From a virus: a stretch of 21,124 nt of DNA. This document shows positions 1,272 through 21,124 of this stretch, piece by piece. The DNA lies in the IMG/VR virus record IMGVR_UViG_3300024226_000050, positions 1 to 21,124 of that record; one strand, written 5' to 3'. The notes under the pieces are model-generated. The model did no database searches, had not been told where the DNA came from, and worked only from the letters and a program-made list of their open reading frames with translations. Numbering within the stretch: the first letter of the stretch is position 1; the number at the start of each line of letters is the position of its first letter. Made by a program: the position numbers and the translations under genes.

Positions 1272-2168
1272 ATGAAATCAACTCAACAAGCGCAACAAGC
1301 AATCGAGAACCTTAACAACCAAGTACTAGAGCTTATGGAGACGGCTGGCACTGACTGGCTCAAGCCGTGGACATCTAAGTTGGCTAAGGGTTTACCGCAT
1401 AACTACTTCAACAAGCGTAACTACAACGGGGTTAACCTGTGGTTACTAGCCTGTCATGATTACAACTCAACGGCATGGGCTACCCGTAAGCAATGGGAGA
1501 AAGCTGGCTACACTGAGTTTGAGGGTGAACCTACGGTGGTGACTCTCATCAAGAAAACCAAGTCCGCCAAGCATAAGAATGAGCAGGGTGACCCAATACA
1601 GTACTGGCTACAGCGTCATTACTTCGTATTCAATAGCGATCAAGTGAAGGGTTTTCAGTTACCCGAAGGGTACACCACACCAGACCAGAATCATGCTTTG
1701 CATGGTAGCTGTGCTCTAGCCAACTCTATTGTTGAGGCAAGTGGTGCAGATGTCAGACACGGTGATACTAAGGCCTATTTCGTACCCTCTCAAGACTTCA
1801 TAGGTATGCCCAATGCAGATGACTTCAAGAATCTTGATGGTTACTATGCAACACTACTGCATGAGCTAACTCATTGGACTGGACACAAGGAGAGGCTCAA
1901 CCGATTCAAGTACCTTGATGGTGAGGGTGACCGTAGCCAGTACGCTTTTGAGGAGCTGGTCGCCGAGTTTGGTAGTGCTCAACTATGTGCCTTGACTGGT
2001 GCGACTAGTGGTGAGGTTAGAGAAGACCATGCCAAGTACCTTAACGGCTGGTTGAAAGCTCTTAGAGATAATCCTAAGTACTTACCACAAGCCATGGCAC
2101 TGGCTAACAAGTCTACTCAATACCTACTTGACCTAGAAGCTGAGGCTTCAGCGAGTGAAGTAGCGTAG
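1272..2168 (+). CDS. ardC: ArdC-type antirestriction protein with zincin-like metallopeptidase domain
   Basis: 298 aa. The N-terminal half (about 1-130) matches the ArdC N-terminal ssDNA-binding domain in style: a helical start, then a block like NYFNKRNYNGVNLWLL and a W-x-T-x-K-Q-W segment near residues 70-76. The C-terminal half is a zincin-like metallopeptidase fold with the metal motif HELTH (197-201) followed by WTGH, then FEELVAE (226-232) supplying the third acidic ligand. The length is close to plasmid ArdC (about 300 aa). In plasmids, ArdC protects incoming DNA from type I restriction. Here it heads the rightward arm after four or five tiny genes, the positional counterpart of T7 Ocr, which suggests early protection of the injected genome. 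The SD lies in the hairpin at 1254-1269. The family call is strong; whether the peptidase is active is unknown. Confidence 0.88.
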   Translation: MKSTQQAQQAIENLNNQVLELMETAGTDWLKPWTSKLAKGLPHNYFNKRNYNGVNLWLLACHDYNSTAWATRKQWEKAGYTEFEGEPTVVTLIKKTKSAKHKNEQGDPIQYWLQRHYFVFNSDQVKGFQLPEGYTTPDQNHALHGSCALANSIVEASGADVRHGDTKAYFVPSQDFIGMPNADDFKNLDGYYATLLHELTHWTGHKERLNRFKYLDGEGDRSQYAFEELVAEFGSAQLCALTGATSGEVREDHAKYLNGWLKALRDNPKYLPQAMALANKSTQYLLDLEAEASASEVA

Positions 2169-17256: not shown

Positions 17257-17978
17257 ATATATACCGTAATGTATGGTTGTAGGTTAGCGTTAGTACCATC
17301 ACCAGTACCTTGGCTACCAGTAGTGCCAGATACACTGTGAGTATGCGTAGGCGCTGTACTTGTTAAACCAATAGTTGCGCTTCCTCCGTCTACACCTGTA
17401 TTCTGAGTGGCAGAGCGCGAACCAGGGTCGTATCCTCTGGCTGGGACATTAGTTGCAGACAATGAAGTAGCACTATTACCATTTACATCATGACTAAAGT
17501 GAGTGTGCGCCCCTCCTGCTCCTGTAGTAGCATTAAAGCTATGAGTGTGAGCTAGGTTAGCTTGGTTAGCACTACCGCCAGTTTCTTCTAGTGTATTAAA
17601 TGCTGCGTTACCACTATCTAAACCTACTAGTACACGACCAGCAGCATAGGCTGTCCATGTACCAAAGCCTAGTAAGGTAGCTGGGTTAGTAGATACAGCA
17701 GCATTACTATAGATAGAACCTACTGGATATACAGCAGCCATAGCAGCTTGTACGAAAGCAGTGGTAGATATTTGTGTACTGTCCGTACCAAAACTAGCTG
17801 TAGGTGCAGTTGGTGTACCTGTAAGTGCAGCATTATTCTTATCTGCTTTACTATTTACAGCAGTTTGTAGTGCTTCAAACTCGTCATCAATCTCTGTACC
17901 TTTGACAATCTTATTAGCATTGCCAGTAGCCAGTGCATCTTTAGCTGCAAAGTCTGTAGTTTTAGAATAGTTACTCAT
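17238..17978 (-). CDS. Tail fibre or tail-tip protein with HxH metal motifs
   Basis: 246 aa. An N-terminal adaptor segment (1-48) is followed by the phage tail-fibre repeat LTGTPTAPTASFGTDSTQIS (52-71) leading to TTAFVQAA. Then comes YPVGSIYSN...LLGFGTW (84-108), typical of phage tail collar or fibre tips, and a Gly/Ser/Thr-rich region with three HTH triplets (144-146, 158-160, 212-214). The end, LQPYITVYMWKRTA, is the common terminus of this family. In T4 gp37 similar HxH motifs hold iron in a trimeric needle, so a trimeric metal-stabilised tip touching the host surface is likely; receptor binding is inferred. The start shares a base with the stop of the hub gene (TAATG). A probable host-range determinant. 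Confidence 0.82.
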   Translation of the reverse strand: MSNYSKTTDFAAKDALATGNANKIVKGTEIDDEFEALQTAVNSKADKNNAALTGTPTAPTASFGTDSTQISTTAFVQAAMAAVYPVGSIYSNAAVSTNPATLLGFGTWTAYAAGRVLVGLDSGNAAFNTLEETGGSANQANLAHTHSFNATTGAGGAHTHFSHDVNGNSATSLSATNVPARGYDPGSRSATQNTGVDGGSATIGLTSTAPTHTHSVSGTTGSQGTGDGTNANLQPYITVYMWKRTA

Positions 17979-19540
17979 TATATAATCCTGCCTTGTTTAG
18001 CGTAAACGTCTAGTTTCTGCACACTTAATTGTGCGCCATCAATATGTGATTCAATACCAATCTGTATTATGTCGCCTGAGCCAGATACTTGTGAAGATAA
18101 TCTATCTAGTGATACACCTAAGTTGTATTCAGCTATAGTAGCTGCATTGTCGCCATACTCTGCTGTACCATACTCTGATATGTTAATCTCTTTTAATGTA
18201 AACGGTGTACTAAAGTAAGAGGTCTGATAGTCATAGCCAACCTTTAATGTAAAGTCTTGTCCTGAACTACCTATAGCTGTAACACTTGCTTTCTTTAGAA
18301 TCTTATTTATATTAGGAATCTCTAAGTCAAAGTGATTAGTAAAGTAAGACATAAGATAACTATTACCATTGTCCTGATAACCTATATACTCTGCTATACC
18401 ATCTGCTTGTGTTAAGTATAGTGCTTTAGCTTTAGGGTCATAAACATAATCGGTATGGTCTAAGTTATTCCATGTTGTTACACGAAGTGAAGCATCTTCA
18501 AGTGTACCTTTAGTATCAAATACAAACTGTGTCTTTGCGTCAGGTAAGCTAATTAAATAGAAAGCTTCTTCAGGAAAGTATGTTGACTTAATTAAATCAA
18601 AGTCATCTTCTCTATTTACAATGTCCATGAATGTATCTCGTACATTCTTAGACAAATCATTTAGTGGTTGTGACTTTTCTTGTATGACACGACCTAACGA
18701 ACGTAAGCCAGTGGCTGATAAGAATACTACATCACTGCCATTATTCTGTATACTACCTTTTGCTATACAACCTACACCACTAATAACTTCTACTAGTCGT
18801 AGTGTGTTTACATCAAAGCTACCTTGAAAGCTATCTTGGTCAGCATAAATAATAATGTTATTACGACAGAATACAATTAGGTAACCATTGTGTTCAGCAA
18901 GCCCTGTAATCACATCAGAGCCTTTAGGTAAAACACCTGCTATGTTGAGACTACCTGCACTACCAGAACCCCACTTAGCTCCATTGAGGAGGTCTGAGAA
19001 GAATACAGTAGTCTTGTTAGTGGGTGTGTCAGCAGCCCATAACCTACCAAACGCAGACATAACTATGCTAGCTAGTGGTGCTGTACCGTTATAGTCAGCA
19101 TGGTTTTCTATTGCCTCAAACTCATCTGCCGTAGATTCGTTAGTGTAGTATAGTGGCTTGTAACCGCCTTGAAAGAAGTAAGCTCTATCATTTAAAGTTA
19201 CTGCTTCCCAATTACCATCACTTAATGTGTCAGTGGTAGTTACAGTTAAGGCACTAAGCGTAGTAAAACCTTTATAGAAACCTGTAGCGTTCCACGAGAT
19301 TATATTCTTAGCATCAGTAACATCTATAAATGGGTGCATACCTAAAAGGTTAAGACCGGTACCACCACTAGTAGTACGATATATCCAACCTTTACGAGCA
19401 CCTAGTCTACCAAACTCATCTATGACGCAGTTGTTAGCCTCCAGTGCAAATCTTGGGTCATTAGCTACAGAGCTTTCCTGTGTATTCAAACCTAAGAAAG
19501 CAGGAGCTACTAGTGATGCTGTTACTAAAGGTTTTGCCAT
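17978..19540 (-). CDS. Tail hub/nozzle protein (P22 gp10 or T7 gp12-like role)
   Basis: 520 aa, almost entirely beta-rich with repeated blade-like units, each containing aromatic-Gly turns (AYFFQGGYKPLYYTN; SAFGRLWAADTP; NGYLIVFCRNNIIIY; DVVFLSATGLRSLG), suggesting a beta-propeller. The opening FLGLNTQESSVANDP...NNCVIDEFGRLGARKGW (about 16-52) is the standard start of podovirus tail stabilisation or nozzle proteins. It should assemble as a hexamer below the adaptor and form the DNA exit channel. The position, after the adaptor and before the fibre, matches T7 gene 12. The ATG overlaps the stop of the preceding gene (TAATG). Confidence 0.85.
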   Translation of the reverse strand: MAKPLVTASLVAPAFLGLNTQESSVANDPRFALEANNCVIDEFGRLGARKGWIYRTTSGGTGLNLLGMHPFIDVTDAKNIISWNATGFYKGFTTLSALTVTTTDTLSDGNWEAVTLNDRAYFFQGGYKPLYYTNESTADEFEAIENHADYNGTAPLASIVMSAFGRLWAADTPTNKTTVFFSDLLNGAKWGSGSAGSLNIAGVLPKGSDVITGLAEHNGYLIVFCRNNIIIYADQDSFQGSFDVNTLRLVEVISGVGCIAKGSIQNNGSDVVFLSATGLRSLGRVIQEKSQPLNDLSKNVRDTFMDIVNREDDFDLIKSTYFPEEAFYLISLPDAKTQFVFDTKGTLEDASLRVTTWNNLDHTDYVYDPKAKALYLTQADGIAEYIGYQDNGNSYLMSYFTNHFDLEIPNINKILKKASVTAIGSSGQDFTLKVGYDYQTSYFSTPFTLKEINISEYGTAEYGDNAATIAEYNLGVSLDRLSSQVSGSGDIIQIGIESHIDGAQLSVQKLDVYAKQGRII

Positions 19541-19875
19541 TATGCTGTACTCACTAGGAATGGTGTTTCTTCAAAGGTTAGTATACATGATACGCCTGTA
19601 GAACCTGCATCACCTGTAATCTCATAACCAGATTCTAGCATTACATAACCACCATCAGTTTCTAATTGTATATATTCACCTGAGCTTAAAGACTTAGAAC
19701 CTATAACTGTAATGGTAGAACCATTCTCAATCTTTATATGTACGTTACTAATTGTAGAACCTGTACCATTTGATACAAATGCTAGTACCCACTTTGCTCT
19801 AGTATTAGGTGGTACTGTATATAGAACATCATTAGTTGTAGGTAAGTTATCAATCAGTATAGTCTTAGCTTTCAT
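19540..19875 (-). CDS. Small beta-rich structural protein
   Basis: 111 aa, almost all beta strand by pattern (alternating hydrophobics, many Thr, Ser, Gly and Asn), with no cysteine cluster except one Cys near the end. It resembles small head- or tail-decoration proteins that sit between adaptor and nozzle genes in marine podoviruses, but no family signature is clear. It has a good SD (AGAGGAG) upstream, overlaps the adaptor gene by 11 bases, and its stop shares a base with the ATG of the nozzle gene. A structural role is inferred from context. Confidence 0.65.
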   Translation of the reverse strand: MKAKTILIDNLPTTNDVLYTVPPNTRAKWVLAFVSNGTGSTISNVHIKIENGSTITVIGSKSLSSGEYIQLETDGGYVMLESGYEITGDAGSTGVSCILTFEETPFLVSTA

Positions 19876-20512
19876 ACCAGATTGTCTCCTCTGGGTATTT
19901 AGCAGCGTCTAAACTAATAAAGTCATTTAGTGAAGTAGTAGCTCTAGCATAAGCAGATACTGGGTTAACACCCCCATCTTCACCACGTTCTTCTACAGCC
20001 ATAGCGTATGTTAATAACTCTATAGGTTTAGTAGGTATAAGAATAGTGTCTGTGTCTTCAGTTAAATCATCTGTACGTTGGACTACATTAAACCTTAGCT
20101 CGTATACACCATCAGGTATTGGATACACATCTACTAACGTGTCACCATCTGCACTAATACCATTAAAGTTATAGTAGTATGGTGCACCTCTTTGTGGTGT
20201 ACTGTTTAAGAATAATTCATTAAAGTGATGTGAACTTTTGTGCTTCATAAATACATCATCAGTGTCGTTAATAACATCAAGTATAGTAAGCCTATTAAGC
20301 GTACCATTTAACTCATAGTTAAACACAGTTGACGATGTAGTCACTGTTAAAGTGTTACGTAATGCTGACCAACTCCAAGCAGTTTCTACTGATTCCTTAG
20401 CGTCATTAATTAAGGTTGCAATAAGTGCAGAGTAAGTTGATTCATTTACTGTAGATACAGTACGTTCTCGTAATCGTTTTAGAACATTGTTTACTATATT
20501 AAGATATGTCAT
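19865..20512 (-). CDS. Head-tail adaptor (tail tubular protein A / gp11-like)
   Basis: 215 aa. The opening MTYLNIVNNVLKRLRERTVS with TYSALIATLINDAKESVETAWSWSALR (to about residue 52) is the characteristic helical start of podovirus adaptors that dock under the portal, followed by a beta-rich central part (about 53-150) and helices near the C-terminus (PIELLTYAMAVEERGEDG). It should form a dodecameric ring between portal and nozzle, as T7 gp11 and P22 gp4 do. The conserved N-terminus fixes the ATG at 20512, yet there is no SD before it; instead a sigma70-like promoter ends 5 bases upstream, so a leaderless mRNA is possible. It is separated from the upstream basic protein by 37 bases, the largest gap of this arm. 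Confidence 0.85.
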   Translation of the reverse strand: MTYLNIVNNVLKRLRERTVSTVNESTYSALIATLINDAKESVETAWSWSALRNTLTVTTSSTVFNYELNGTLNRLTILDVINDTDDVFMKHKSSHHFNELFLNSTPQRGAPYYYNFNGISADGDTLVDVYPIPDGVYELRFNVVQRTDDLTEDTDTILIPTKPIELLTYAMAVEERGEDGGVNPVSAYARATTSLNDFISLDAAKYPEETIWYES

Positions 20513-20517
20513 GTATT

Positions 20518-20546
20518 ATAATACCATATATTTGATAGAATGTAAA
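20518..20546 (-). promoter_or_regulatory. Sigma70-like promoter positioned for a leaderless adaptor mRNA
   Basis: Read on the minus strand: TTTACA (20546-20541, -35, 5/6), a 17-base spacer, then TGG-TATTAT (extended -10; hexamer 20523-20518, 5/6). The expected start, about 6-7 bases after the -10, falls on the ATG (20512-20510). An alternative perfect TATAAT (20520-20515) would have a 20-base spacer. Being AT-rich, some of this could be chance, but hexamers, spacer and extended TG agree together. Confidence 0.55.
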
Positions 20547-20549
20547 GAG

Positions 20550-20840
20550 CTACCACTTGGATTTGTTAGCCCAGTAAGCTGCAGACATCTTACCTTTAGC
20601 TATGTTCTTACCATGGCGTGCTTTAAATGATTTACGTTTAGCTTTCATACGTGCACCTTCGCCAGCTTTAGGTTTACCTGCTGTTTTAGCCCCTTGCTCT
20701 CCGTAACGGATAGTCTTAATCTTATCCCCCTCTTTAGCCACCACTACGTGTGACTTCTTAGGGTGGTTAGGTGTACGCTTAGGTTTGTTGTAACCTGATA
20801 CACCAGCCCTTGCTAGTCTTGGATCTTTCTTTGCTGCCAT
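20550..20840 (-). CDS. Small highly basic conserved phage protein
   Basis: 96 aa, about a third Lys and Arg. The start KKDPRLARAGVSGYNKPKRT and the end KGKMSAAYWANKSKW are strongly patterned, and similar short Lys-rich proteins with an R-x-x-RAGVSG-x-NKPKRTP opening recur in marine phages; I recall this as a domain of unknown function and cannot name it with certainty. High positive charge and no membrane segment suggest DNA or RNA binding, perhaps packaged with the genome. Its ATG shares a base with the stop of the upstream cupin-like gene (TAATG); the SD is weak. It precedes the candidate promoter for the tail genes. Confidence 0.7.
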   Translation of the reverse strand: MAAKKDPRLARAGVSGYNKPKRTPNHPKKSHVVVAKEGDKIKTIRYGEQGAKTAGKPKAGEGARMKAKRKSFKARHGKNIAKGKMSAAYWANKSKW

Positions 20841-21124
20841 TACTTATATCTCTTTGTCAGTCTAGTGTAAGGATAAACCTTGTCTCGCCACTTAGCTGTA
20901 ACGTCTTGCTGCTTCCTACCCATAAAGAGTAATGTCCAAACAGGCTCATCACAATGTACTCTATGGTACTCGTCACTCCTTACTACATTAATAAACTTAG
21001 AGTGCCTAGTAGTAACAAGTCCTGCTACTTCTACATCTTCCCAGTAACTACCCTTCAGTAAGAAGGATACAAAGTTACCTTCGTGGTTATGGTATATCTG
21101 TTCTATTGGGTATATCTTACTAAG
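20840..21124 (-). CDS. Cupin-like protein, 3' end only
   Basis: The last 94 codons of a gene running off the right edge. The pattern is that of a cupin (double-stranded beta-helix) domain: H-N-H-E-G near the start of the visible part (residues 12-16), SFLLKGSYWED (20-30) as the central strands, and SDEYHRVHCDEPVWTLLFMGRK (50-71) as the second cupin motif with a conserved His. The end is basic (KWRDKVYPYTRLTKRYK). Cupins bind metal and can be dioxygenases, epimerases or only binding modules; the substrate is unknown. Being in the leftward arm upstream of the tail genes is unusual for a metabolic enzyme. The stop overlaps the ATG of the basic protein. The start and any N-terminal domain lie outside the window. 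Confidence 0.65.
   Translation of the reverse strand, partial: LSKIYPIEQIYHNHEGNFVSFLLKGSYWEDVEVAGLVTTRHSKFINVVRSDEYHRVHCDEPVWTLLFMGRKQQDVTAKWRDKVYPYTRLTKRYK

Follow-up and report, generated by a model that had tools for sequence, protein, structure and literature searches.

Leaderless phage mRNA is an already known kind of transcript. The textbook case is the cI gene of phage lambda, which is transcribed from the sigma70 promoter PRM with the -10 element directly before the ATG, so that the mRNA begins at the AUG. The virus gene described here, encoding a head-tail adaptor, resembles cI in that its sigma70 promoter also places the -10 right in front of the ATG. The two differ in that cI encodes a repressor, has 6 nt between -10 and ATG, and its 5′ end has been measured, whereas the adaptor is a virion gene with a 5-nt gap, known from sequence alone. 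Lambda is also cited as a leaderless case in PMC3160421 and PMC9031893, and a TANNNT signal with its first T ~12 bp before the start codon has been used to recognise leaderless genes (Zheng et al. 2011, PMC3160421). These ‘TA-led’ genes share with the adaptor gene a TANNNT just before the start codon; its first T stands 11 bp before the ATG, one base off the published bacterial signature. The ‘TA-led’ signals come from bacterial and archaeal genomes, whereas the adaptor is a phage tail gene and also has a -35 and an extended -10.

The window, i.e. the whole stretch of DNA analysed, is the 21,124-base virus record IMG/VR IMGVR_UViG_3300024226_000050, and its source is an uncultured bacterial virus, probably a marine one. 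Early and replication genes lie on the plus strand, including those for a family-A DNA polymerase, a primase-helicase, endonuclease I, ribonucleotide reductase subunits and an ArdC-like antirestriction protein, and structural genes lie on the minus strand. The ArdC-like protein (1272-2168, plus strand) has ArdcN and zincin-like metallopeptidase domains and is placed amid the early genes. On the minus strand, the adaptor gene (19865..20512; SU10_adaptor family, 215 aa) is preceded by a gene for a 96-aa protein of unknown function (20550..20840; phrog_7595). A gap of 37 nt separates the stop codon of the latter (TAG, 20552-20550), which serves as anchor for the promoter position, from the adaptor ATG. 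Just upstream of the phrog_7595 gene, a gene clipped by the window edge (20840-21124, minus strand) matches phrog_4786, annotated ‘cysteine dioxygenase’. Two downstream minus-strand genes would belong to the proposed operon. One encodes 111 aa and has a normal Shine-Dalgarno (SD) sequence, AGAGGAGA (19540..19875); the other encodes a 520-aa structural protein (17978..19540), for which the best PHROG label is ‘amidase’ and, weakly, ‘head closure Hc3’, while distant matches in pelagiphages and a roseophage carry structural-protein annotation.

The adaptor protein matches PF24175 (SU10_adaptor) with 42.3 bits, above the curated cut-off of 27, and also the tail protein phrog_10775. Its relatives were collected in three viral-contig scans, which gave 213 usable loci with 92 distinct upstream sequences; none was found among isolated phages or in GTDB genomes. 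All 213 loci have an MTYL..VNN-type N-terminus in common, in several unrelated upstream contexts and many with a normal SD, which fixes the start codon at 20510..20512.

Upstream of this ATG, the -35 element TTTACA (20541..20546, minus strand) starts 3 nt past the upstream stop codon and is the same in the relatives L005-L007, L293, L364 and L300. It is followed by a 17-nt spacer ending in TGG (20524..20526), an extended -10 of the TGn type. Then come the -10 element TATTAT (20518..20523), which reads TATAAT in relatives of the same arrangement, and a 5-nt discriminator, AATAC (20513..20517). TTTACA-17-TATTAT matches the sigma70 consensus at 10 of 12 positions, and with TGG before the -10 it has the makeup of a sigma70 extended -10 promoter. 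An alternative -10, TATAAT at 20520-20515, was dropped, as it would need a 20-nt spacer to the -35 and, in this register, does not occur in the kin.

SDs are present at most of the 26 gene starts in the window. The adaptor start has the weakest anti-SD duplex energy among them (-2.8 kcal/mol), and even this pairing stems from the promoter's own GGUAU (TGGTAT). Leaderless mRNAs are expected to have a -10 ~5-8 nt from the start codon and no SD, and to start with AUG, not GUG or UUG. At the adaptor gene the distance from -10 to ATG (N) is 5, ATG is used in all leaderless-type haplotypes, and no SD is found, although this last feature is not independent of N=5 because the -10 fills the SD position. 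A sequence-only reading of the same DNA had already described a head-tail adaptor gene with a start codon fixed by a conserved N-terminus, this motif at this spacing with the -10 ending 5 nt before the ATG at 20512, and no SD. Its motif and coordinates are exact, and its gene assignment, start codon and lack of an SD agree with the profile matches, the 213 loci and the duplex energies.

The relatives fall into three kinds by what precedes the gene. In the first, TTTACA-17-TGGTAT(A/T)AT stands at N=5 without an SD. Five haplotypes are of this fused form (the window's own, present in five identical copies with itself counted; L005-L007; L293; L364; L300), no indel occurs anywhere among them, and all keep TGG. 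In the second kind, ~22 haplotypes, the same gene follows a TTGACA- or TTGACT-17-TGnTATAAT-like promoter at N=15-34, with TGn in nearly all; mostly an AGGA-type SD follows, often as TAGGAAACGCAA-ATG, and a few have a weak SD only. In one locus, L411, the gap measures 10 nt and contains GAGG. All other loci form the third kind; these lack a promoter and usually have an SD, which in some cases lies within the last part of the upstream gene (e.g. AAGGTGAAATGGTAATG in L012).

When fused and leadered haplotypes have the same upstream gene, their -35 elements occupy the same position shortly after its stop codon, often 2-6 nt past it; the clearest pair is TAATAC-TTTACA (L005) and TAATAC-TTGACA (L342). 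The leadered relatives L342, L349, L282, L284, L291 and L295 are like the window in gene pair, -35 just past the stop, 17-nt spacer and TGn, but have a leader with an AGGA- or AGG-type SD and N=21-26. The natural reading is one promoter position with a leader present or absent behind it, and this lineage's adaptor gene has probably lost its mRNA leader. Among the promoter-bearing relatives, 11 loci (L307, L309, L349, L365, L342, L284, L291, L358, L295, L299 and L347) have a perfect TTGACA-17-TGnTATAAT directly before the adaptor gene, unusually exact for a structural gene. Four leadered loci (L294, L315, L337 and L348) depart consistently from the -10 consensus, with TTGAC(A/T)-17-TACCCT and TGC before the -10, which may reflect a different host or sigma factor.

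The promoter has been kept while its surroundings changed. Core bases are identical at 14 of 15 positions between the window and L005 and other gap bases at 11 of 22 (Fisher p=0.006), against L293 the figures are 14/15 and 13/22 (p=0.02), and since the four other leaderless-type haplotypes are near-identical in the promoter, partly spread by recombination, these amount to about two independent comparisons. The sole core change relative to L005 turns TATTAT into the consensus TATAAT. At fourfold sites in the flanking genes, 26-30% differ between the window and L005-L007. The discriminators of the fused forms (AATAC, ATTCT, ATTAT, ATCTT) are constant in length and variable in sequence, and their last base is a pyrimidine. 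Thus, promoter sequence and a fixed distance to a start codon set by homology are conserved in the kin. The five fused and ~22 leadered haplotypes strongly support the promoter that had been proposed at the adaptor start, and likewise a clade-wide promoter of the tail operon. Of the two comparisons that had been suggested with it, conservation of -35 and -10 is borne out across these haplotypes, and absence of an SD holds in the five N=5 haplotypes but not in the leadered ones, which usually have one of AGGA type.

The L005 adaptor gene is a mosaic. Its promoter and first ~115 nt are nearly identical to L293, and the rest is mostly 90% or more like the window. In the adaptor tree, leaderless rows stand in two places, among promoterless rows. 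Together, these observations indicate that the promoter has probably moved by recombination, and promoter and gene start appear to move together. The tree did not uphold a nesting of the leaderless form inside the leadered form, so whether a leader was lost or a promoter gained is read from the promoter position only.

In the explanation that we favour, a host-type sigma70 promoter with extended -10 in the 37-nt gap would start a tail-assembly transcript. The leader of more distant relatives is missing from the window lineage and from its close kin, so the -10 ends 5 nt before the ATG. In a useful fraction of initiations, transcription would most likely begin on the A of the ATG (20512), the adaptor would be translated from the resulting 5′-terminal AUG by the known 70S/leaderless route, and downstream genes with their own SDs would be translated normally. 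The most likely consequence of the fused promoter would be a leaderless adaptor mRNA. From the arrangement of the sequence we infer that host RNA polymerase uses the promoter, where exactly it starts, and that translation is leaderless. The predicted fold leaves the proposed mRNA unpaired over its first 13 nt.

The choice of start nucleotide bears on this most directly. In E. coli, positions 6, 7, 8 and 9 past the -10 take about 8, 55, 29 and 7% of starts (PMC5730371, citing Vvedenskaya 2015). At the adaptor site, position 6 is the A of the ATG, 7 its T, 8 its G and 9 the following A. T is a disfavoured initiating base, and A and G of the ATG are each preceded by a pyrimidine. With C or T ending the discriminator, the preferred pyrimidine-purine step falls at the A of the ATG. 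Hence, under E. coli rules, a start on A is possible but not favoured, and it competes with a start on G, which lies at position 8 after a pyrimidine; a start on G would destroy the adaptor start codon. Because of this competition, the chief weak point of the leaderless explanation, our confidence that a sigma70 promoter without leader drives a leaderless adaptor mRNA is modest, somewhat above even.

The same rules leave room for a real promoter that starts inside or just past the ATG (G 20510 or A 20509) and makes a transcript for the downstream tail genes. The adaptor would then be translated off read-through mRNA, at a start codon that lies in unstructured, AU-rich sequence and lacks an SD. 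E. coli's preference for positions 7-8 over 6 speaks for it, as does the weak structure predicted around the ATG in a longer transcript. So does a window scan in which no terminator-like site turned up between the adaptor gene and the phrog_7595 gene, which makes read-through possible. However, a promoter serving downstream genes only need not keep exactly 5 nt in every haplotype, and the adaptor usually has an SD in its promoterless or leadered relatives, which the fused form gives up. We therefore regard this explanation as unlikely, though deserving serious weight. The terminator scan also bears on the proposal of the sequence-only reading that transcription is independent of upstream capsid genes. 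This finds no support, as the phrog_7595 gene lies on the same strand with no terminator-like site after it, and capsid genes are absent from the window.

The leaderless explanation itself allows that upstream read-through probably adds some mRNA. A version with two modes, in which read-through would supply adaptor at a basal level and the leaderless promoter would boost the tail genes later or more strongly, is compatible with the shared strand, the 37-nt gap and the missing terminator-like site; we consider it improbable.

To assess the strength of the promoter signal, sites within 60 nt upstream of the 26 gene starts were scored by the number of bases agreeing with TTGACA and TATAAT, plus TGn. 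Only the adaptor start, with a score of 11, exceeds 9. Dinucleotide shuffles of its 60-nt and 37-nt upstream stretches equal this score in 0.04% of 5,000 trials. Seven 10-of-12 sites occur in 20 kb, the adaptor site included, two of which have TG before the -10; the second of these is on the strand opposite to its surrounding genes. Over the whole window, promoter-like sites are fewer than in shuffles (36 vs 50), and with no excess the argument rests on position and conservation, since the motif count alone proves nothing. That a chance promoter-like sequence in an AT-rich gap precedes an operon expressed by read-through only would suit this lack of excess, but it is scarcely credible given the positional shuffles and the occurrence of a promoter ahead of this gene in about 27 haplotypes, the majority of which match at least 10 of 12 consensus bases. 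A pattern scan did not find the motif repeated elsewhere in the window, which therefore has no shared phage-specific promoter of this type.

For a wider view, viral contigs were scanned for TTTACA-N14-TGGTATWAT-N(2-14)-ATG. Among the matches listed, ATGs opening ORFs of at least 60 aa concentrate at N=6 and 7 (23/51; uniformity rejected, p=7e-6). When the first such ATG is at least 18 nt away, an SD is nearly always present among the matches listed (96% at or below -4 kcal/mol), a contrast by N that partly follows from the layout itself, since at small N the promoter takes up the SD site. Genes at N=5-7 among these listed matches encode a T4-like DNA polymerase, UvsY, an exonuclease and a heptose nucleotidyltransferase, with several profile matches beginning at residue 1 or 2; a single conserved gene among them is at N=5 (L219). 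This pattern increases the prior probability that promoters of this form are used to make leaderless mRNAs. Tentatively, and with slightly less than even confidence, we suggest that start-codon-fused sigma70 promoters (TTTACA-14-TGGTATAAT, 5-7 nt, ATG) are common in uncultured viruses and yield leaderless mRNAs for core tail-assembly and replication/recombination genes, and that in the window's group they arose via loss of a short SD-bearing leader and afterwards spread through recombination.

Whereas lambda cI, the textbook leaderless phage mRNA, codes for a regulator, the gene that appears to have shed SD and leader here encodes a virion protein. Leaderless and leadered lineages with the same promoter position offer a natural before-and-after pair for the cost or gain of leaderless initiation. 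The T4-like contigs suggest that the fused arrangement occurs commonly among uncultured viruses. Operon maps and gene callers that rely on SDs may misread starts of this type.

In the T4-like phages C48C1 and HTVC008M, the fused promoter form is absent from the first 50 kb, so that the T4-like contigs with this form probably belong to another group. T4-like and other viral contigs with TTTACA-14-TGGTATAAT include L177, L210, L211, L213, L220, L222, L227, L192, L194 and others listed. The genes that follow the promoter in these contigs encode DNA polymerase, UvsY, a DNA-binding protein and other conserved products, and their ATG is only 6-7 nt away, too close for an SD to fit.
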